A stretch of DNA of 64,000 bases, from contig NZ_OY762656.1 in NCBI RefSeq assembly GCF_963666255.1, forward strand, positions 1,240,001-1,304,000, written 5' to 3'. Source of the stretch: an uncultured Propionivibrio sp. (GTDB taxonomy: Bacteria; Pseudomonadota; Gammaproteobacteria; Burkholderiales; Rhodocyclaceae). The position numbers and the translations under genes are program-made. Of this stretch, positions 1 through 9,774 are shown piece by piece. The notes beneath the pieces are model-generated. The model was given only the letters and a program-made list of their open reading frames with translations. It did not search any database and was not told where the DNA came from. How positions within the stretch are numbered: position 1 is the first letter of the stretch; each line of letters begins with the position of its first letter.

Positions 1-302
1 GCTACATCGGCTCGGATGCCGACTATGTCGATTACATTACGGAGCTGATGGGCGGCTTTGCCGTGCCGCCGTTCGTCAAGGCCCTGCGCCGGGAGAAACG
101 GTATCTGCTGCTCGGCATGCGTCTCAACCGCGATACCGAACGCATGGTGCTTTCCGATCTGATCCATGGCGCGGGGTCGCCCGCCGGCTGGGCGATGATC
201 GCCGACCCGACGGTCAAGGAGCGGCGTTTCCTCGAACGCATCGGCATCGCGCTGATCGAGGACAGTTGGTTGGCGCTGCTACAGGCGGAGACGCTTACGT
301 AG
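1..302 (+). CDS. C-terminal part of a probable SIR2-like protein (truncated by the window edge)
   Basis: An open reading frame enters from the left edge in frame 3 and stops at 300-302, giving about 99 residues with no start inside the window that I trust. The stretch YLLLGMRLNRDTERMVLSDL resembles the C-terminal end of SIR2-like NAD-binding domains, where a 'LLLG' strand precedes a variable helix. I recall SIR2-like genes lying near draT/draG in some betaproteobacterial nif clusters, but that is memory and not something the fragment proves. The last eight bases overlap the end of draG, which is convergent. The function is uncertain because the NAD-binding core would lie outside the window. 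Confidence 0.45.
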   Translation, partial: YIGSDADYVDYITELMGGFAVPPFVKALRREKRYLLLGMRLNRDTERMVLSDLIHGAGSPAGWAMIADPTVKERRFLERIGIALIEDSWLALLQAETLT

Positions 303-1200
303 CGCCGGTCGCCTTGTCGGCGCACGCCATCAGGGCTCGCGCCTGCTTGCGGCAGGCGAGGTTCACCGCCGGATCGAGCGCCCTGATCCAGCGCGGCGGA
401 ATCGCCTCGATCCCGTAACAAGCGCCGGCGAGCATGCCGACGATGGCTCCGGTCGTATCGGCGTCGCCGCCGCGATTGACGGCATCGACGAGACAGCTCT
501 CGAAGCTGTCGGTCTGCATCAGCGATTGCAGTACTACCTGCATCGTCTCGACGATCCAGCCGCTCGGATTTTCGCGCCGCCGCGTGCGATAGGAGCACTC
601 GGGATTGGCGCTCACGTAGGGCAGGATGCAGCGGCGATAGACCGCGCTCAAGGGGGCGCCACGCAGGAACTGCTGCACGGCCAGCACGATGCACTCGCAG
701 GCGGCGTCGGATGCCGGGTTGTGGTGCGTCACATGTGCCTGGGCGCGGACGCCGGCGCGGATCGTCGCTTCATCGCGGCCGAACAGCGCCAGTGCCACCG
801 GCAGTACGCGCATCGCCGCGCCATTGCCGGCGTCGAATTCCGAGGACTTCGCCTCGGGATCGCCGCTGCGCCGGAAGGCAACCAGATTGCGCCGCACGGT
901 GTTACCGATGTCGACCGGTTTGCCGCGCATCCAGGCGTCGAAGGCGCGCGCGCAGGACAGCGGCCTGACTTCGCCGTCGTCGTCGAGGATCGCCTTGCCC
1001 AGCGCCAATGCCATCGTCGTGTCGTCGGTGACCTGGCCGGGTTTGATGTTCAGCCAGCCGCCACCGCGGATCTCGTTGTGCACGCCGTAACGTTGCGCGA
1101 TCTCGCGCGGCATCATGAATTCGACCGTCGCGCCGAGCGCGTCGCCAAGCGCGAGTCCGAGATAGGCGGCTTCGGCGCGGGCGACGAGCGCGCTGTTCAT
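295..1200 (-). CDS. draG: ADP-ribosyl-[dinitrogen reductase] glycohydrolase DraG
   Basis: 301 residues. DraG removes ADP-ribose from an arginine of the nitrogenase Fe protein and so reactivates it after ammonium or energy shock; the modifying enzyme is DraT. The metal-binding signatures of the ADP-ribosylglycohydrolase family are visible: GQVTDDTTMALAL near the N-terminus and NRGGDADTTGAIVG near the C-terminus. I chose the ATG at 1200 because it begins the conserved segment (ALVARAEAAYLGLALGDALG); the longer open frame upstream is only shadow sequence. An AGGT-like ribosome site precedes it. It is the last gene of the minus-strand nifB operon, 77 bases after the FeSII gene. No draT is inside the window, so DraT must be encoded elsewhere if the system is complete. 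Confidence 0.93.
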   Translation of the reverse strand: MNSALVARAEAAYLGLALGDALGATVEFMMPREIAQRYGVHNEIRGGGWLNIKPGQVTDDTTMALALGKAILDDDGEVRPLSCARAFDAWMRGKPVDIGNTVRRNLVAFRRSGDPEAKSSEFDAGNGAAMRVLPVALALFGRDEATIRAGVRAQAHVTHHNPASDAACECIVLAVQQFLRGAPLSAVYRRCILPYVSANPECSYRTRRRENPSGWIVETMQVVLQSLMQTDSFESCLVDAVNRGGDADTTGAIVGMLAGACYGIEAIPPRWIRALDPAVNLACRKQARALMACADKATGAT

Positions 1201-1277
1201 GTCGGCACCTGGTTCGCCGTTGGGTTGCCGGTCATTCGTCGGGGCGGGGCGCGCCACAGGACGTGCCCCCGTCATCC

Positions 1278-1637
1278 TCAGCGGCTCGGATACTCGACGA
1301 TCATGTCCTCGTCGCGCAGCACCATCTGGCAGGCCAGTCGCCATTCGTTCGGCATGAAATCGTCGACCAGCATCTTGTCGACCTCGTCCTGCGTCACCTT
1401 GCCCATGTCCTTGAGGATCGCGATTTCGTGATCGGTCAGCGGATGCGCCATGCGCTTCTTGCGATCGAGCGGGAAGACCTTGACCAGGCAGTTGCCGCAT
1501 TCGCCATCGCCGCAACTGAAATCGATGGGAACGTGATTCTCCTTGGCGATGTCGAGAATCGTCTTCTTGTGGCTGCCGGTGACGGCATAGACGGTCTTGT
1601 CCTTGTGCAGCCGGCTGCTGAAAGTGATCGTGGGCAT
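1278..1637 (-). CDS. Shethna FeSII-type [2Fe-2S] protective ferredoxin
   Basis: 119 residues. The sequence follows the Azotobacter FeSII (Shethna protein II) pattern throughout: an N-terminal TITFSSRLHKDK strand, the cluster motif CGDGECGNCLVKV, the segment LTDHEIAILKDMGKVT and a final RLACQ...DEDMIVEY. FeSII is known to bind the oxidised MoFe and Fe proteins of nitrogenase and form an inactive complex that is protected from oxygen. The start at 1637 has an AGAGGAG ribosome site at good distance. It lies between a second [2Fe-2S] ferredoxin and draG in the nifB operon, so it should be made together with FeMo-co precursor enzymes. Assignment to FeSII rather than a generic plant-type ferredoxin rests on remembered sequence similarity over the whole length. 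Confidence 0.85.
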   Translation of the reverse strand: MPTITFSSRLHKDKTVYAVTGSHKKTILDIAKENHVPIDFSCGDGECGNCLVKVFPLDRKKRMAHPLTDHEIAILKDMGKVTQDEVDKMLVDDFMPNEWRLACQMVLRDEDMIVEYPSR

Positions 1638-1683
1638 GTCTGACTCCTCTGTGGTGAATGGACGACGAAGAAAGCGCCGGCGC

Positions 1684-1971
1684 TCAGGCCGGTTTGACGA
1701 TGACATCGCCTTTGAGCACCTGGGCCTGACAGGCCAGGCGGTGATGGCGCGGTGCCAGGTTGTCCTTCAACACCTGGTCTTCGATTACCGACGGAGCGGC
1801 GAGGTAGTCGTGGCCGGAGACGATCTCGGTCAGACAGGTGCAGCATTCGCCTTCGCGGCAGCCGTAGATGATGCCGGCGCCGATTTTTTCCGATACCTCG
1901 ATGAGGCGCGTTCCGGCAGGCACCGAGACGGTGATGCCGACGTCCTGGAATGTGACATTCGCTTTGGGCAT
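1684..1971 (-). CDS. [2Fe-2S] ferredoxin of the nifB operon
   Basis: 95 residues, the length of a plant/adrenodoxin-type ferredoxin. It has the motif CREGECCTCLTEI and a distal RLACQAQVLKGDVIV, which supplies the fourth cysteine. An additional Cys lies inside the loop (ECCTC), which is a little unusual. An AAGGAG ribosome site precedes the ATG at 1971. It starts ten bases after the flavodiiron protein gene ends and is followed 46 bases later by the FeSII gene. It probably passes electrons to nitrogenase, to the flavodiiron protein or to NifB chemistry; the sequence alone does not say which. Confidence 0.85.
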   Translation of the reverse strand: MPKANVTFQDVGITVSVPAGTRLIEVSEKIGAGIIYGCREGECCTCLTEIVSGHDYLAAPSVIEDQVLKDNLAPRHHRLACQAQVLKGDVIVKPA

Positions 1972-1981
1972 GCTTCTCCTT

Positions 1982-3259
1982 TCAGGCCAGCGTGGCCATG
2001 TCGATGACTCGGTGATCGGCTTGGCCGGTCAGATGCTTTGCCAGCTCGACGCCAAGGCGGCGGCAGTTGGCCAGTTCCTCGGGGGTTGGAATCAGGCGCG
2101 CGCGCACGCCCGGCAGGGGCACGCGCAGCTTGAGGCCTCGCAGGCGTTCTTCGATCAGGGGGACCGCTTCGCCGCTCCAGCCGAAAGCGCCGAAGGCCGC
2201 GCCGAACTTGCCGCGCAGTTCGATGGCGTTGAGCGAGGACAGCAGGTCCCAGACCGGTTTGACGGCGTCGCCGTTGATCGTCGGGCTGCCGACGGCGATG
2301 GCGTCGGCCTCCTCGACAAGATCGATGAGCAGGTCGGGTGTGCAGGTTTCCAGGTCGTGCAGCGACACGTGCAGGCCTGACGATTCGGCGCCGGCCGCCA
2401 GCACGCCGGCCATCGCCCGCGTGCTGCCGTAGGCCGAGAGGTAGAAGACGTGCAGGCGCTTGAGCCTGCCTTCGGGGTGTCCCGCCGGACCGGCCAACTG
2501 TCGGTAGCGGCGCAGGTAGTACTGCGGTGTTTCCCGCAGTACCGGACCGTGGGCCGGCGCCAGCGTGCGGATCGGCAGCGGATCGATCAGATCGAGCGCC
2601 TCGCGCACATGGGCCTTGAATGGACGCATCAGGTGGGCGAAGTAATAGTCGAAGTCGCGGCGGAAATCGCCGACCGCGTCGTCGAACAGGCGTGCATCGC
2701 ACACGTGGCTGCCGAAGGCGTCGCCCGAGAACAGCACGCCGGCATCCTCAAGCCAGGTGCACTGCGTGTCCGGCCAGTGCAGGCAGGACGTGGTCAGGAA
2801 GGACAGTGTGCGGCCGCCGAGATCGACGAGGTCGCCGGTGATCACCGGCGTGACCGGCAGGCTGTCGGCATGCAGCAGTCCCTTAAGCATGGGCTTGGCG
2901 CGTGCCGAGAGGTAGAGTCGTGCGTTCGGCGCCCGGCGGAGCAGTTCCGGCAAGGCGCCGGTATGGTCGGGTTCGAGGTGATTGAGCACGACCGCCTGGA
3001 TTTCATCGTACTGCGCGACGGATTCGAGGCGACGGAAGAACTCGTCCGAAAAACTGGCCTTGACCGTGTCGATGACCGCCACGCCGCGATTGCCGCGAAC
3101 GACATAGGCATTGTACGAAGTACCCCGTTCGGTCCTCAGCACGAGGTCGAAATTGCGCAGCCACGGATCGAAGGCGCCGATCCAGTGCACCCGCTCGGCG
3201 ATCTCGACGGCGCCGCCGCGACCCGAGTCCGGCGAGAGATCCATGTCGGCCGGTTTCAT
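1982..3259 (-). CDS. Flavodiiron protein (FprA family, A-type)
   Basis: 425 residues, the usual size of a two-domain flavodiiron protein that reduces O2 to water or NO to N2O. The metallo-beta-lactamase-like half has the full set of diiron ligands: His94-x-Glu96-x-Asp98-His99 in NHLEPDH, His161 in CLHWPD, Asp180 in FSGDAFGSH and His237 in APAHGP. From about residue 275 a flavodoxin domain follows, with an FMN-binding loop YLSAYGSTRAMA and later GSPTINGDAVKP. The start at 3259 shares ATGA with the stop of nifO, which indicates translational coupling. Position in the nifB operon next to FeSII suggests oxygen removal for nitrogenase under nitrogen-fixing conditions. An NO-reducing role is possible as well. 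Confidence 0.9.
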   Translation of the reverse strand: MKPADMDLSPDSGRGGAVEIAERVHWIGAFDPWLRNFDLVLRTERGTSYNAYVVRGNRGVAVIDTVKASFSDEFFRRLESVAQYDEIQAVVLNHLEPDHTGALPELLRRAPNARLYLSARAKPMLKGLLHADSLPVTPVITGDLVDLGGRTLSFLTTSCLHWPDTQCTWLEDAGVLFSGDAFGSHVCDARLFDDAVGDFRRDFDYYFAHLMRPFKAHVREALDLIDPLPIRTLAPAHGPVLRETPQYYLRRYRQLAGPAGHPEGRLKRLHVFYLSAYGSTRAMAGVLAAGAESSGLHVSLHDLETCTPDLLIDLVEEADAIAVGSPTINGDAVKPVWDLLSSLNAIELRGKFGAAFGAFGWSGEAVPLIEERLRGLKLRVPLPGVRARLIPTPEELANCRRLGVELAKHLTGQADHRVIDMATLA

Positions 3260-3702
3260 TCGCGCACCGGACAGGTCGTTCCGTTCGCATCGTGCCGGCA
3301 GACCTCGGGATTGCCGATTACCGGCGAGCCTTCGAAGGCGGCGGAAAGACCGATCCACGCATGAATCGTCCGGATGTCGAAGCCGGCCTGGCAGATGCCA
3401 TCGACGTCGAGCAGCGGACGGCGGATCAGCAGCGGATGTTCGACCAGCAGGTCGAGCACCGTCGTCACGTCGGCGGCATCGAAGGCATCCGGATTGATCG
3501 CGCCACTCTGGATCAGCGGCGCGTTTCGGTTGAACCATTGCGACACCGGCAGCGACTTGAGGAACGGCAATAGTTGCAGGCGCCGCCAGTCGGCATGCAG
3601 GATGTCGCGCGCCACGACGGTATGGCCGGAGGCTTCCAGCAGACGCTTCTGCCAGGCGTTGCCGGCGCATCCCGGCTTTTCGTAGAACACCACGGTGGCC
3701 AT
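3256..3702 (-). CDS. nifO: Nitrogenase-associated ArsC/thioredoxin-fold protein NifO
   Basis: 148 residues. The opening TVVFYEKPGCAGNAWQKRLL is the thioredoxin/ArsC-like fold with a single active-site-type cysteine, and the later RRPLLDVDG segment is typical of this family. Such proteins occur in the nifB operons of Azotobacter and relatives; NifO is reported to affect the distribution of molybdenum between nitrogenase and nitrate metabolism. The ATG at 3702 is preceded by AGGAG. It sits 10 bases after the ferredoxin gene and overlaps the flavodiiron gene by four bases. Biochemical function in this organism is inferred from context. Confidence 0.85.
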   Translation of the reverse strand: MATVVFYEKPGCAGNAWQKRLLEASGHTVVARDILHADWRRLQLLPFLKSLPVSQWFNRNAPLIQSGAINPDAFDAADVTTVLDLLVEHPLLIRRPLLDVDGICQAGFDIRTIHAWIGLSAAFEGSPVIGNPEVCRHDANGTTCPVRE

Positions 3703-3712
3703 CGTCGTTCTC

Positions 3713-3991
3713 CTAGGGGGCGCCTGATGCCGGGCGCATCGCCGCCCACAGTTCGGGCGGCAGGTTCGTCAGCGAGCCGAGCGGATTGAGCGGCTCATTC
3801 AATGCATTGACGATCGCGCCCTCGATCGGGCAGATCGAGGCGCATTGCGGATCGGCGTAGTCGCCGAGGCACTCGCTACAGGCCGACGCGTCGATCAGGA
3901 AATGCGGCTTCGCCGCCCGGATCGCCCCGCTCGGGCACAGCGGCTCGCAGGCACAGCAATTGACGCAGGCTTCTCCAATTCGCAACGCCAT
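3713..3991 (-). CDS. fdxN: NifB-associated 2[4Fe-4S] ferredoxin (FdxN type)
   Basis: 92 residues. The first cluster motif is CVNCCACEPLCPSGAI and the second is CSECLGDYADPQCASICP, the latter with the eight-residue spacer characteristic of 2[4Fe-4S] ferredoxins that follow nifB. These proteins donate electrons to nitrogenase and to the radical SAM reaction of NifB. The ATG at 3991 overlaps the TGA stop of nifB in an ATGA arrangement, which points to coupled translation. The C-terminal tail after residue 65 has no clear motif. Confidence 0.9.
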   Translation of the reverse strand: MALRIGEACVNCCACEPLCPSGAIRAAKPHFLIDASACSECLGDYADPQCASICPIEGAIVNALNEPLNPLGSLTNLPPELWAAMRPASGAP

Positions 3992-5484
3992 CACGCACGC
4001 TGCCTTTCCGGCGCGGCACCGGCGAGCTCGCCTTTTTCCAGCATTGCGCGCCACACCGCCGCCACGGCCTCCTCGATCGCCGTCATGGCGTGTTCGGTAT
4101 CCGGGCGGATGCCGGCCGCTTCCAGCCGGCCCCACGGTTCGATGCCGATACGCGCGCAGAGCACTGCTTCGCAGCCTTCCAGCGCGCGGACGATGCGGTC
4201 GATCCTCGACTCGCCGTCGCCGCAGGTGTCGCTGCCGCCACAGTATTTTTCCGTCTTGCGGTGGCCGATCAGGCGAACGCCGGCTTCGCTCGCTTCATAC
4301 ACCAGGAATTCACGCGCGTAGCCGAAATGCTCGTTGATTATGCCGTTGCCTTTGGTCGCGACGGCCATCAGCACCGGTCGTCCGAGCGGCTTGCGCGGCG
4401 GCCGGTGCAGGGCGATCACCTGCGTCGCGGCCAGGGCGCGTTTTGCCTCCAGTTCGGCGCGCACCTGTTCGCGGAATGCCAGTCGACGCGCCAGCGCGGC
4501 CTCGTGGTCGATTTTCATCGCTGCCACCTTCTCCAGCGTGAACTCGGCGCCGCGATCCTCGCCGAGCAGGCCGACCGCATCGGCGCGGCACTGGCGGCAA
4601 TGGCGCATCATCGTCATGTCGCCGGCGCAGGCGTCCTGCACGGCTTTCAGCTCGGCCGCCGTCGGGCCGCGCTGACCGGTCAGTCCGTAGAAGGTGCCGT
4701 GTTCCGGCGCGGCGATCAGCGGCATGACGTTGTGCAGGAACGCCCCCTTGGCCTTGACGATGCGCGAGACCTCTTCGAGGTGGCCGTCATTGACGCCAGG
4801 AATCAGCACCGAATTGACCTTGACCAGGATGCCGCGTGCCACCAGCATTTCCAGTCCCTTCTGTTGCTGCGCGATGAGGATCTCGGCCGCGGCGCGACCG
4901 CGTACGCGGCGGTGCTGCCAGAAGATCCACGGGTATATCTTCGCGCCGATGTCGGGATCGACGCAGTTGATGGTGATCGTCACGTGTTCGATGGCGTGCT
5001 GGCTCAGTTCCTCGACGCACTCGGGCAAGGCCAGACCGTTGGTCGACACGCACAGCTTGATGTCCGGCGCCTTCTCGGCGAGCAGGCGGAAGGTCGCGAA
5101 AGTGCGCTCGCGATTGGCCAGCGGGTCGCCCGGGCCGGCGATGCCGAGCACCGACATCTGCGGAATCGCTGCCGCTACGGCCAGCGTCCGTTGCACGGCC
5201 TGCTCGGGCGTCAGCAGTTCGGAAACCACGCCGGGGCGCGATTCGTTGGCGCAGTCGTACTTGCGGTTGCAGTAATTGCACTGGATGTTGCACGCCGGTG
5301 CGACGGCCGCGTGCATGCGCGCGAAATAATGATGCGCCTGCTCCGAATAGCACGGATGCGCTTCGACCTTGCGACGGACCGCCTCCGGCAACCCGCCCAT
5401 CTGCCGCGCAGACGCGCCGCATGCGCTGGCGCTGCAGCCGCCCGAAGCCGGTACGACCGGAATGATGATGTCTGGATGCTCCAC
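3991..5484 (-). CDS. nifB: FeMo-cofactor biosynthesis radical SAM protein NifB
   Basis: 497 residues. NifB fuses two [4Fe-4S] units with carbide insertion to form NifB-co, the core of FeMo-co. The radical SAM motif CNIQCNYCNRKYDC lies near residues 65-78. The SAM domain continues with IAGPGDPLAN, CVSTNGLALP and TITINCVDP. A C-terminal NifX/NafY-like domain runs from about residue 375 (VLMAVATKGNGIINEHFGYA) to near the end. The start is GTG at 5484, preceded by GGAG at seven bases. It heads a seven-gene operon down to draG. A sigma-54 promoter and two NifA sites stand directly upstream. Confidence 0.97.
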   Translation of the reverse strand: MEHPDIIIPVVPASGGCSASACGASARQMGGLPEAVRRKVEAHPCYSEQAHHYFARMHAAVAPACNIQCNYCNRKYDCANESRPGVVSELLTPEQAVQRTLAVAAAIPQMSVLGIAGPGDPLANRERTFATFRLLAEKAPDIKLCVSTNGLALPECVEELSQHAIEHVTITINCVDPDIGAKIYPWIFWQHRRVRGRAAAEILIAQQQKGLEMLVARGILVKVNSVLIPGVNDGHLEEVSRIVKAKGAFLHNVMPLIAAPEHGTFYGLTGQRGPTAAELKAVQDACAGDMTMMRHCRQCRADAVGLLGEDRGAEFTLEKVAAMKIDHEAALARRLAFREQVRAELEAKRALAATQVIALHRPPRKPLGRPVLMAVATKGNGIINEHFGYAREFLVYEASEAGVRLIGHRKTEKYCGGSDTCGDGESRIDRIVRALEGCEAVLCARIGIEPWGRLEAAGIRPDTEHAMTAIEEAVAAVWRAMLEKGELAGAAPERQRA

Positions 5485-5518
5485 GATAGTCTCCGCACGC
5501 TGTGTCCATGTGCTTTGA

Positions 5519-5533
5519 GCAATCGACGTGCCA
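5519..5533 (-). promoter_or_regulatory. Sigma-54 promoter of the nifB operon
   Basis: Read on the minus strand the element is TGGCAC-N5-TTGC, an exact match to the -24/-12 consensus. It ends about 35 bases before the nifB GTG start. Confidence 0.93.
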
Positions 5534-5589
5534 AACGTCGATGTCGGCGCAAGCCGCTGTTATTGCGGCGTTTTATTCAATGTGGCTTA

Positions 5590-5605
5590 TGTAGCAAGAC
5601 AAACA
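5590..5605. promoter_or_regulatory. NifA upstream activator site (proximal) for nifB
   Basis: Perfect TGT-N10-ACA. It lies about 57 bases upstream of the nifB -24 element and 31 bases, close to three helical turns, from the second site. Confidence 0.85.
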
Positions 5606-5620
5606 AAGCGGCAGGCTGCG

Positions 5621-5636
5621 TGTCACAAAGGCCACA
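5621..5636. promoter_or_regulatory. NifA upstream activator site (distal) for nifB
   Basis: Perfect TGT-N10-ACA, about 88 bases upstream of the nifB -24 element, a usual distance for NifA binding. Together with the proximal site it could bind two NifA dimers on the same helix face. Confidence 0.88.
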
Positions 5637-5727
5637 CGGGAAGGCGCGTGACCGGCGGTGCGACGCCGGCAGCCGCGGATCGCACGGAGATGACGATCCG
5701 GCTCACGAACCGTCGTGTCCGTGTCGT

Positions 5728-7292
<1,565 letters not shown>

Positions 7293-7302
<10 letters not shown>

Positions 7303-8828
7303 GACGGGCTTCCCTTGCGCAAGGCCGGCAATGTCACATGCATGGCGCAACCGCCGGAATCGCCGGCTTCAATCCTGATGACGCCTTCATGGACGGCGGC
7401 GACCTGCTGCGCCGATGACAATCCGGTGCCAAGATGCTGCCCGCCGGACTTGCGTGTCGAGTAGAACGGTTCAAAGACCTTCAGGCGCAGGGCGATCGGG
7501 ATGCCGGGTCCGCTGTCCTCGATGACGACGCTGATGTTGCCGCTGGCGGCGCGCGTCGTCACGCGCAGTTCGCGCCACGTCCAGCCCTTGGCATTCATCG
7601 CGTCGATGGCGTTGTCGACGATCGCCTTGAACATCGTGCGCAAGCGCTTGGCATAGCCCAGTACGGGCGGCATGACCGCCTGCGGCTGCCAGTGTACGGT
7701 GATTCCGGCCGCCAGCATGCGTTCGGTGCTGAGGTCGAGCACGTCGCGCATCACTTCGTTGATGTTGACGGTCGTCTGCGATTCTGGCCGGTGTTCGGGG
7801 ATGACGGCGCGCAGGGTTTCCACCGTCTCGCGACAGGCGGCAAGCGCCTCGCGCAGCGCGGCGGCGGCAGGATCGAGGCCGGAGCGGCGCTCGATCGTGG
7901 CCATCACCGAAGCCATCACATTGACCGGCCCCTCGATCTTGTACACCGCCGCCGACAGCGATTCCTGCAAGGTATCGATGCGGCTTTCCTCGGCCATCAT
8001 CGCCTGCAGCAGGGCCATGCGGGTCTTCTCCTGCTCGGCGCGCTGGCGTGTCGTCTCGCGTGCGATGAGCAGGAGATAGCAGTCGTCGCGCCGGTGGAAA
8101 AAGCCGTCGGCATCGCCGGGCTGGCGCTGCACCCAGAGGCCCGAACAGGAAAACCAGCGCGGTCCGGCCGGCGATTCGAGGCGCAGTTCGTGTTCGCTGA
8201 ACGCCGGGTCGCCGATGCGCGCCGACGGGCGCAGCACGGTGCCGTCGGCGCGCACCGCGTCGAGGATCAGGCGCGCCGGTTCGACCATGCGCAGGTCGCC
8301 CATCAGCTTCTTGTATTCGTGGTTGTCGAGCACGACCTTGTCATGACGATCGACGAGCGCGATGACGAGCGGCGCCGAATCGACGACCGTTTCGATCAGC
8401 GCCTTCTGGCCGGCGACTTCGCATTCGAGTCGGTGCAGCGGCGTGACGTCGCGCTGCAGGGCGAGATAGTGGCTGATCTCGCCGTCGCCATCGACGACCG
8501 GCGTGATAAGGAGGTCGGCGAGATACTTGCTGCCGTCCTTGCGCCGGTTCACGAGGCGGCCGTTCCATGCCAGTCCGCGCGAGATGACCGCCCACAATTC
8601 TTCATACACCGCCACCGGCGTCGATTTGTTCGAGAGAATCGACTGGTTGGCGCCGATCAGTTCGTCCGGCGCATAGCCGGTCATCCGCACGAAGGCCGGA
8701 TTGACATAGAGGATCGTCGCGTTCACGTCGGAAATCGAGATCGCGATGTCCGCCTGCTCGACCGCCTGCTCGAAAATCTGCGGCACGATGGTCGTCGGCG
8801 ATCCGGGTGTCGACTGCGGAGTGTTCAT
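7293..8828 (-). CDS. nifL: Nitrogen fixation negative regulator NifL
   Basis: 511 residues, close to Azotobacter NifL. A first PAS domain (about 20-130, with YVNPAFVRMTGY and NRRKDGSKY), expected to hold FAD and sense redox state, is followed by a second PAS domain (about 145-270), a helical region and a GHKL ATPase domain (VIEDSGPGIP, GTGLSSAQQV). The position where histidine kinases carry the phospho-acceptor His reads YKIEGPVN, so no acceptor is seen; NifL works by protein-protein contact with NifA. I chose the ATG at 8828 because AGGAA lies seven bases upstream; an in-frame ATG at 8846 is possible. Translationally coupled to nifA. Confidence 0.95.
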
Positions 8829-8860
8829 GATCGATTCCTGTGTCATGTGTCGACGCCGAT

Positions 8861-8875
8861 GCAGGTTCCGTGCCA
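8861..8875 (-). promoter_or_regulatory. Probable sigma-54 promoter of nifLA
   Basis: On the minus strand it reads TGGCAC-N5-CTGC. The -24 part is perfect and the invariant GC of the -12 part is present, with C in place of the first T. It lies 33 bases before the nifL start and suggests that NifA activates its own operon. Confidence 0.72.
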
Positions 8876-8980
8876 TTGGCCGTTCCTTGCGATGCCGGGC
8901 ATGGTCGGAAAATTGGCGGTTTTCAAGCTTGTCCCTCATGCCGACAGGGACATCGCCCGTCTGTCGGCTTTGTCGCAGCT

Positions 8981-8996
8981 TGTCGGACTTGCGACA
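8981..8996. promoter_or_regulatory. NifA upstream activator site between nifL and rnfA
   Basis: Perfect TGT-N10-ACA, 106 bases upstream of the nifL -24 element. The motif is palindromic and also lies about 200 bases before rnfA, so it may serve both directions. Confidence 0.78.
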
Positions 8997-9192
8997 TTCC
9001 TGAGGCAATTCCGACGACGCGCCGTTCGTTCGGACGCCGGCCGAAAACACCGTAACGGTGCGGTTTCTGGCGCGGCCGCACATTTTCGGGGAGGCGGCGA
9101 GCGCGCTTGGCACGATTCGTGAATCAGGACTGGCGAAGGACTATTCCGGCCTTGCGCCTTTCCACACTTTCACGCGATTCAATCGAGCCATC

Positions 9193-9774
9193 ATGGGTGA
9201 ATACATTGCGCTGCTGATTACGACCGCCTTCGTCAACAACGTCGTGATGGTCAAGTTTCTCGGGCTCTGCCCGTTCCTCGGCGTGTCGAAGCGCATCGAC
9301 GGCGCGCTCGGCATGGGCATGGCGACGACCTTCGTCATCGTCCTGGCCGGGTCGGTGTGCTGGAACATTGAACATTGGCTGCTCGCGCCGCTCGGGCTCG
9401 GCTATCTGCGCATCATTTCCTTCATCCTCGTCATCGCCGCCATCGTCCAATTTACCGAGATGGTGATTCACAAGATGGCGCCCTCGCTCTACCAGACGCT
9501 CGGTATCTACCTGCCCTTGATCGCCACCAACTGCGCGGTGCTTGGCCTGGCCCTGATCAACACGCAGGAAGGCCAGAGTTTCGTCACCGCCGTCATCTAC
9601 GACTTCGGCGCCTCGACCGGTTTCAGCATCGCCATGGTGATGTTCGCCGGGATGCGCGAACGACTCGCGCTCGCCCGCATCCCGGCTGCATTTTCCGGGG
9701 CGCCGATCGCCTTCATCCTCGCCAGTTTGATGTCATTGGCATTCATGGGATTTTCCGGACTCAACCTCAGCTAG
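9193..9774 (+). CDS. rnfA: Rnf electron transport complex subunit A
   Basis: 193 residues, an integral membrane protein of about six segments. The opening [26 protein letters not shown] and the later [15 protein letters not shown] are family signatures; the paired Cys residues of RnfA and RnfE form a [2Fe-2S] cluster within the membrane in the solved complexes. Rnf uses the ion gradient to push electrons from NADH to ferredoxin or flavodoxin, here probably for nitrogenase. The ATG at 9193 begins the conserved N-terminus; the open frame runs further upstream without conserved sequence. It is the first gene of rnfABCDGEH. Confidence 0.95.

Follow-up and report, generated by a model that had tools for sequence, protein, structure and literature searches.

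What does a flavodiiron protein (FDP) do in an operon that makes the nitrogenase cofactor? The question is raised by a 64,000-nucleotide stretch of an uncultured Propionivibrio sp. genome (contig NZ_OY762656.1, positions 1,240,001 to 1,304,000; "the window" below), whose minus strand carries, in sequence, nifL, nifA, nifB, a 4Fe-4S ferredoxin gene, nifO, the FDP gene, fdxC, a gene for a protein like Azotobacter FeSII (Shethna protein II), and draG. An earlier, sequence-only reading of this DNA had placed nifB, a ferredoxin, nifO, the FDP, two [2Fe-2S] ferredoxins and draG behind one promoter, and all of these were found by family models or homology. Comparison with other genomes shows the nifB operon to contain a conserved accessory unit for nitrogen fixation, and the two halves of this unit, the FDP-FdxC pair and FeSII, are already known separately. 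Oxygen protection is the likeliest reading of the unit, as judged from sequence and gene context. Papers are cited by PMC number, and statements drawn from them refer to those parts of the texts that were available.

Conservation of the FDP-FdxC-FeSII unit

With an alignment of 20 FDPs as query, a scan covering one genome for each species gave 519 stretches encoding relatives; the best 80 loci were retained, and every one of these was examined. Genes up to 9.5 kb away on the FDP strand were counted as neighbours; some of the losses are contig ends. The sequence-only reading had suggested a search for FDP beside FeSII in nifB operons, and FDP, FdxC and FeSII are indeed all present in 77 of the 80 loci, in beta- and gammaproteobacteria. 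Because FdxC and FeSII accompany FDP so regularly, the grouping is beyond chance. Counted singly, the neighbours of FDP are FdxC (78 loci), FeSII (77), nifO (74), the 4Fe-4S ferredoxin (73), nifB (71), draG (65) and nifQ (58), and the median gaps are 16 bases between FDP and FdxC (n=78) and 68 bases between FdxC and FeSII (n=77). The hosts include Azonexus, Dechloromonas, Zoogloea, Thiobacillus, Gallionella, Methylomonas, Methylotuvimicrobium and Beggiatoa, and the exceptions are loci L106 (FDP alone), L108 (no FdxC or FeSII) and L130 of Rhodocyclus gracilis (no FeSII). The whole unit, together with nifQ, is also present in three of three genomes from one more class, which is probably the Zetaproteobacteria (family code f79). 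We note that the FDP gene of one such unit (L136, at G473:C29) has an internal TGA, which reflects either a disrupted gene or an error of sequencing.

A survey of 399 genomes of the window's order found an FDP at E 1e-40 in 26, of which 20 (the window included) are nif-type and six are NorV-like, with 33-35% identity; FdxC and FeSII genes adjoin 13 of the 20 nif-type FDP genes. In a draw of 240 genomes of the order, nifB is borne by 36, and all 13 nif-type FDP genomes of the draw are among these (hypergeometric 2.3e-12, a figure that ignores kinship and treats shared genome handles as the same genomes). A nifH gene scored over the cut-off in six of eight FDP-bearing genomes tested, and a search for FdxC (E 1e-12) in 398 genomes of the phylum gave five matches, all in FDP-bearing genomes. 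The window's own genome has one gene each for the FDP and the FeSII-like protein in searches with those proteins. A plasmid collection contains 37 records with an FDP, all below 60% identity (39.3% for the best among the 30 listed). The one FeSII-like gene in that collection lies directly behind nifHDK in a nif cluster on a plasmid of Methylococcus sp. EFPC2 (L157), where no FDP is annotated in the 24 kb stretch.

Promoter and extent of the operon

The sequence-only reading had also described a consensus sigma-54 promoter, which proved to match without mismatch and to be accompanied by two NifA-type upstream activator sites (UAS; Table 1). Among the 67 loci with enough sequence upstream of nifB, 65 have a sigma-54 box with at most two mismatches in the 450 bases that precede nifB (54 with at most one), and in each of these 65 a TGT-N10-ACA motif is found no more than 250 bases upstream of the box, as opposed to 4.3% of base-shuffled sequences. 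Within the operon, a box with at most one mismatch was found only in L058, apart from the orphan FDP gene of L106 described below. The window genes are tightly packed: nifB and the 4Fe-4S ferredoxin gene have one base in common, the FDP start overlaps nifO by 4 bases, and the remaining intergenic gaps are 10, 10, 46 and 77 bases. No sigma-70-like promoter was found in positions 1-9200 of the window. The same scan gave 13 terminator-like sites, against 6.7 expected from shuffles, and the sole one inside the operon on the operon strand, a 5-pair hairpin at the fdxC stop, finds no support as a terminator in its folding, which is no better than that of shuffled sequence (z 0.00). No separating promoter or supported terminator thus came to light between these genes, and nifB to draG as a single NifA/sigma-54 unit, predicted from the sites, is supported by the cross-genome comparison. 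The range first given for the module, 1278-5484, contains the genes from nifB to FeSII; draG (1200-295) lies outside it.

Table 1. Genes and regulatory sites of the nifB operon and its upstream region (positions in the window)
Feature	Position	Strand	Evidence or note
nifL, open reading frame	7293-9113	-	
nifA	5728-7350	-	
UAS, TGT-N10-ACA, NifA-type, distal	5621..5636	-	identical in P. dicarboxylicus L054
UAS, TGT-N10-ACA, NifA-type, proximal	5590..5605	-	identical in P. dicarboxylicus L054
sigma-54 -24/-12 box TGGCACGTCGATTGCT	5518..5533	-	0 mismatches
nifB, GTG start	3991..5484	-	TIGR01290 644 bits, cut-off 343.65
4Fe-4S dicluster-type ferredoxin, 92 aa	3713..3991	-	YfhL-family model, below cut-off
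nifO, nitrogenase-associated ArsC-like protein, 148 aa	3256..3702	-	TIGR01616 138 bits, cut-off 109
FDP, FprA-type, 425 aa	1982..3259	-	ODP/MBL and Flavodoxin_1 domains, seven ligands
FdxC, [2Fe-2S] ferredoxin (FdC/FdIV-like), 95 aa	1684..1971	-	PDB 9i2a E 4.1e-32
FeSII (Shethna protein II)-like [2Fe-2S] protein, 119 aa	1278..1637	-	PDB 5ffi E 1.2e-24, 9iey 9.9e-25
draG	295..1200	-	TIGR02662 372 bits, cut-off 337

The TIGR01616 protein is the one whose gene we take to be nifO. To the left of the window, open reading frames were recognised by eye, rather than typed by models, as nifH, nifD and nifK, and draT (PF07357; G000:C2:1238522-1239280) adjoins nifH and is divergent from it. A 303-aa open reading frame between draT and draG (L053:9391-10302, its end being window positions 1-302) had no NCBIfam match at 1e-10.

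The flavodiiron protein

The claim that the FDP has complete diiron ligands was borne out, all seven (H94, E96, D98, H99, H161, D180 and H237) being present in alignment to 1ycf. The same seven are found in all 56 rows of nif-type FDPs by alignment columns; a looser ligand pattern missed two of these rows, both of which carry the ligands. The C-terminal flavodoxin domain is recognised (PF00258, 3.5e-12), and most homologues align only from residue 15-18 of the window protein, whose closest named record is that of Propionivibrio dicarboxylicus DSM 5885 (96% identical). An AlphaFold model built with 20 sequences (pLDDT 78.5, pTM 0.64) matches flavodiiron structures first (best PDB 1ycf, E 1.1e-34), with a TM of only 0.57, so the domain packing is uncertain. 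The protein shares the two-domain flavodiiron core and seven ligands with NorV, Moorella FprA and Desulfovibrio gigas ROO. It differs from them in that no rubredoxin family matched it and in having T-Q-C rather than S-M-x after the HWPD motif, and the flavorubredoxin NorV models gave scores (260 of 635 and 229 of 711 bits) far below their cut-offs. T-Q-C was also present in all 23 FDP rows that were found independently of the search seed containing it.

Two further residues, K67 and Y277, occur in every one of the 56 nif-type rows, 54 of which are distinct, and align with positions 52 and 262 of Escherichia coli flavorubredoxin (FlRd), which has D and S there. Structures of the FlRd mutants D52K and S262Y have been solved, according to their PDB titles. 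D/S is found at these positions in eight NorV-like FDPs of other orders within the window's class, W/W in six of its own order, and K/W in five FDPs from a survey of presumably Alphaproteobacteria; of five further FDPs one has K/Y, on a Subdoligranulum plasmid, and it adjoins the nif-type group in the tree. In the O2-selective FDP of Entamoeba histolytica it is reportedly Lys53 and Tyr271 that set the preference for O2. The Lys/Tyr pair favours O2 over nitric oxide (NO) as the probable substrate of the window FDP.

In a quick tree search of 80 FDPs, with long outgroup branches and with a sample of nif-type rows for which 33 of the 80 loci were used, all 56 nif-type rows form one group (SH-aLRT 98) separate from the NorV-like FDPs. 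The FDPs of the window and P. dicarboxylicus share a long branch (0.57) in this tree; their ligands are intact and the dN/dS (nonsynonymous to synonymous substitution) ratio between them is low. Between the window and the P. dicarboxylicus locus (L054) this ratio is 0.111 for FDP, 0.097 for nifB, 0.099 for fdxC and 0.096 for FeSII.

The [2Fe-2S] ferredoxins and DraG

The sequence-only reading had recognised two [2Fe-2S] ferredoxins, one an FeSII homologue; both Fer2 proteins of the operon are accounted for in this way, and the other can now be identified as FdxC, which matches Rhodobacter capsulatus Ferredoxin-4 (FdC). The FeSII homologue is related to Azotobacter FeSII over residues 1-117 of its 119. 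In a set of 77 such sequences (76 from 77 loci that passed a length and stop filter, plus the window's; numbering without Met), the four cluster Cys and Lys14 are invariant, Lys15 is replaced by Thr in all, and His55 is kept in two. Lys14, Lys15 and His55 are nitrogenase-contact residues of FeSII (PMC3045800). The window protein has the four Cys and the N-loop (39 residues versus 38) in common with the A. vinelandii protein, but has Thr for Lys15 and no His55. It is termed FeSII-like here, and by homology it may form an O2-stable complex with nitrogenase. DraG scores above the TIGR02662 cut-off and draT is in the same genome; DraG is presumably part of the DraT/DraG switch that responds to ammonium and energy. 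The sequence-only reading had counted it in the oxygen module, but nothing in our analysis links it to oxygen defence.

Other arrangements of nif-type FDP genes

An orphan nif-type FDP gene in a metagenome-assembled genome of the Nitrosomonadales (L106:938-2319) has its own perfect sigma-54 box and UAS, so NifA-type control can follow FDP out of the operon; in the 12 kb examined there, the only other match among the query genes was a 38% NifA-like stretch. In L113 the operon is split between nifB-ferredoxin and nifO-FDP-FdxC-FeSII-nifQ-draG by a group II intron maturase and mostly untyped open reading frames (L113:2600-9500), and a UAS lies at 9388.

In a second arrangement (L040, L042 and L045; also L021, L041, L043 and L044) a nif-type FDP gene is followed by genes for a 118-aa FdxC-like protein and FdxC, and these FDPs are nested within the nif-type group of the tree. 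In L045 the FDP gene is downstream of nifV (over cut-off) and of nifW-, ETF-alpha-, FixC- and FixX-like genes (all below cut-offs), and the second-arrangement genes precede a 2Fe-2S ferredoxin gene like NF041613 (below cut-off), which we take to resemble Shethna protein I. A non-nif function for the nifB-less FDP of genus g41 was considered and dropped, since the FDP gene follows nifV in L045; nifH is over the cut-off in five of six g41 genomes. The 118-aa ferredoxin of g41 was rejected as an FeSII, being FdxC-like instead, and g41 as ammonia oxidisers was likewise set aside, as no ammonia monooxygenase match was obtained in seven of seven genomes, though the search control also gave none anywhere.

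Relation to known systems

The R. capsulatus fprA-fdxC-fdxN operon shares with that of the window an A-type flavoprotein and an FdC-type [2Fe-2S] ferredoxin in one NifA-type operon; it is preceded by NifA and RpoN sites, and its expression is strongly reduced without NifA (PMC6925177). An FdC-type ferredoxin gene adjoins the FDP gene in the window and in 78 of the 80 loci, as in this FprA-FdC pair. Unlike the window operon, that of R. capsulatus lies beside rnf and has neither nifB nor a Shethna-type gene, and R. capsulatus fdxD adjoins nifHDK. FDPs were found in 15 of 385 genomes, presumably of Alphaproteobacteria (best E 3.7e-80), none of them close, with the R. capsulatus FprA sequence itself outside this comparison. 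FdC has been proposed as the electron donor of FprA (PMC10936413, PMC12223475, PMC12929197) and considered an unlikely reductant of nitrogenase (PMC12929197), a possible oxidase or NO role has been raised for FprA (PMC12223475), and papers of 2024-2025 state that the role of FprA/FdC in nitrogen fixation is unknown (PMC10936413, PMC12223475).

The same gene order was listed in 2009 under other names in Table 4 of the Dechloromonas aromatica RCB genome paper, with similar sizes: NifB 500, 4Fe-4S ferredoxin 92, a nitrogenase-associated protein 159, "flavodoxin" 423, "ferredoxin, nitric oxide synthase" 95, 2Fe-2S ferredoxin 120, NifQ 190 and DraG 326 (PMC2907700). The window differs in having no nifQ between FeSII and draG, and the table, as available, leaves FDP and FeSII unnamed and proposes no oxygen role. 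Azotobacter FeSII is tied to O2 protection of Mo-nitrogenase and R. capsulatus FdxD has been proposed as a protective ferredoxin (PMC6925177, PMC11301756), FeSII activity having been shown only in Azotobacter (PMC11301756). The window gene lies in a nifB operon and not, like those for FeSII and FdxD, beside nifHDK or behind nifK; the sequence comparison was with FeSII. The sequence-only reading had held that this was not a described unit. That stands insofar as no paper naming FDP and FeSII as a (protective) unit was found when open-licence literature was searched, and no FDP is mentioned in the available parts of the Azoarcus BH72 and Pseudomonas stutzeri papers; it does not stand for FDP plus ferredoxin under NifA (PMC6925177), nor for the full gene order, which is tabulated for D. 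aromatica (PMC2907700).

Function of the unit

We propose that NifA and sigma-54 would switch the unit on together with synthesis of the iron-molybdenum cofactor (FeMo-co), that FdxC, reduced by the low-potential electron supply, would pass electrons to the FDP as suggested by homology with R. capsulatus FdC/FprA, and that the FDP would most likely remove trace O2 by reducing it to water in the cytosol, the compartment in which nitrogenase, NifB and the intermediates of the cofactor are exposed. The FeSII-like protein may then lock nitrogenase in an O2-stable complex if some O2 nonetheless gets through; DraG shares the operon, yet would belong to the DraT/DraG switch. We hold the balance to be even on whether such a NifA-switched unit, with FdxC-fed O2 removal by the FDP and the FeSII-like protein as a second layer, operates here. 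The wider proposal, that beta-, gamma- and probably zetaproteobacterial diazotrophs have a NifA-timed defence composed of an O2-selective FDP sink fed by FdC and an FeSII-like conformational lock, is tentative, possible rather than probable. Anabaena heterocyst Flv3B, to our knowledge, is not part of a nif operon. It is a cyanobacterial three-domain FDP (PMC4390876), unlike that of the window, and its link to diazotrophy in air, as given in the title of a reference, is a precedent for the oxygen reading.

Several observations weigh against oxygen protection. Propionivibrio dicarboxylicus is a strict anaerobe, and deletion of fprA (Jouanneau 2000) reportedly lowered nitrogenase activity and left nitrogen fixation unaffected, even microaerobically. 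Seven of the 20 nif-type FDP loci in the order survey have FdxC-like genes with no FeSII gene seen adjoining (two of the seven lie on short contigs of 3.0 and 5.9 kb), no nif-type FDP was found at E 1e-40 in 23 of the 36 genomes of the draw that bear nifB, and genomes G344 and G030 carry a nif-type FDP with no nifH over the cut-off. The FeSII homologue is without the Lys15 and His55 of the Azotobacter protein, and no activity measurement was found in the literature for any FDP of the nif-type clade. Deletion of R. capsulatus fdxC slows photoheterotrophic growth on N2 (43.7 versus 10.3 h; PMC10936413), and the role of FdC is described as one in anaerobic nitrogen fixation (PMC12223475), which O2 removal would not explain.

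It is possible, though in our view rather unlikely, that the FDP-FdxC pair has an O2-independent redox task such as a step of FeMo-co assembly or the disposal of excess low-potential electrons. The pair is under purifying selection in Propionivibrio, strict anaerobe though it is, its neighbours nifB, nifO and nifQ are cofactor genes, and in L045 it follows nifV and nifW-, ETF-, FixC- and FixX-like genes; moreover, without fdxC R. capsulatus does not grow normally on N2 under anaerobic conditions, and FprA rises in the fdxC mutant (PMC10936413, PMC12223475). The full set of diiron ligands and the Lys/Tyr pair speak instead for O2 chemistry, the most constant neighbour after FdxC is FeSII (77 of 80), with its O2-protective role (PMC11301756), and the absence of FDP from those 23 of 36 nifB-bearing genomes indicates that it is not a general cofactor-assembly step. 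That the genes of the unit share a promoter only because nif islands move as blocks, with no joint function, seems quite improbable: nif clusters are transferred as blocks and related nifB operons have this gene order as a trait, but the order persists across beta- and gammaproteobacteria and a further class, FDP and FdxC recur in the second nif arrangement, and in L106 a sigma-54 box and a UAS accompany the orphan FDP gene.

The FDP might also be an NO reductase that shields nitrogenase and NifB from NO produced by nitrate respiration or by denitrifying neighbours. Among the nearest FDPs of solved structure are E. coli flavorubredoxin and Moorella FprA, the latter deposited as a nitric oxide reductase, and some of the host records bear the names Thiobacillus denitrificans and Denitromonas. 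In addition, no NorB-type reductase is seen in the window's own genome, since its single match to PF00115 (heme-copper oxidase subunit I, which we take to cover NorB) is the cbb3 subunit CcoN. We nevertheless consider this role unlikely, because the nif-type FDPs have K/Y (56 of 56) where NorV-like FDPs have D/S or W/W, lie apart from them in the quick tree, match no rubredoxin family and score far under the flavorubredoxin cut-offs; we also know of no role of FeSII against NO. The oxygen defence put forward in the sequence-only reading is thus plausible, and is favoured, though not proven, by the adjoining FeSII gene and the Lys/Tyr pair.

Because the pair adjoins an FeSII homologue and its FDP carries an invariant Lys/Tyr at sites where E. 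coli flavorubredoxin mutants have been made, the role of FprA/FdC becomes directly testable, through O2 or NO reduction by the FDP and through the exposure of nitrogenase upon joint loss of FDP and FeSII. If the two-layer defence is real, it would also explain the function of FprA/FdC in nitrogen fixation, and, if oxygen protection is confirmed, FDP-FdxC-FeSII would be a small ready-made cassette for nitrogenase in O2-exposed hosts.

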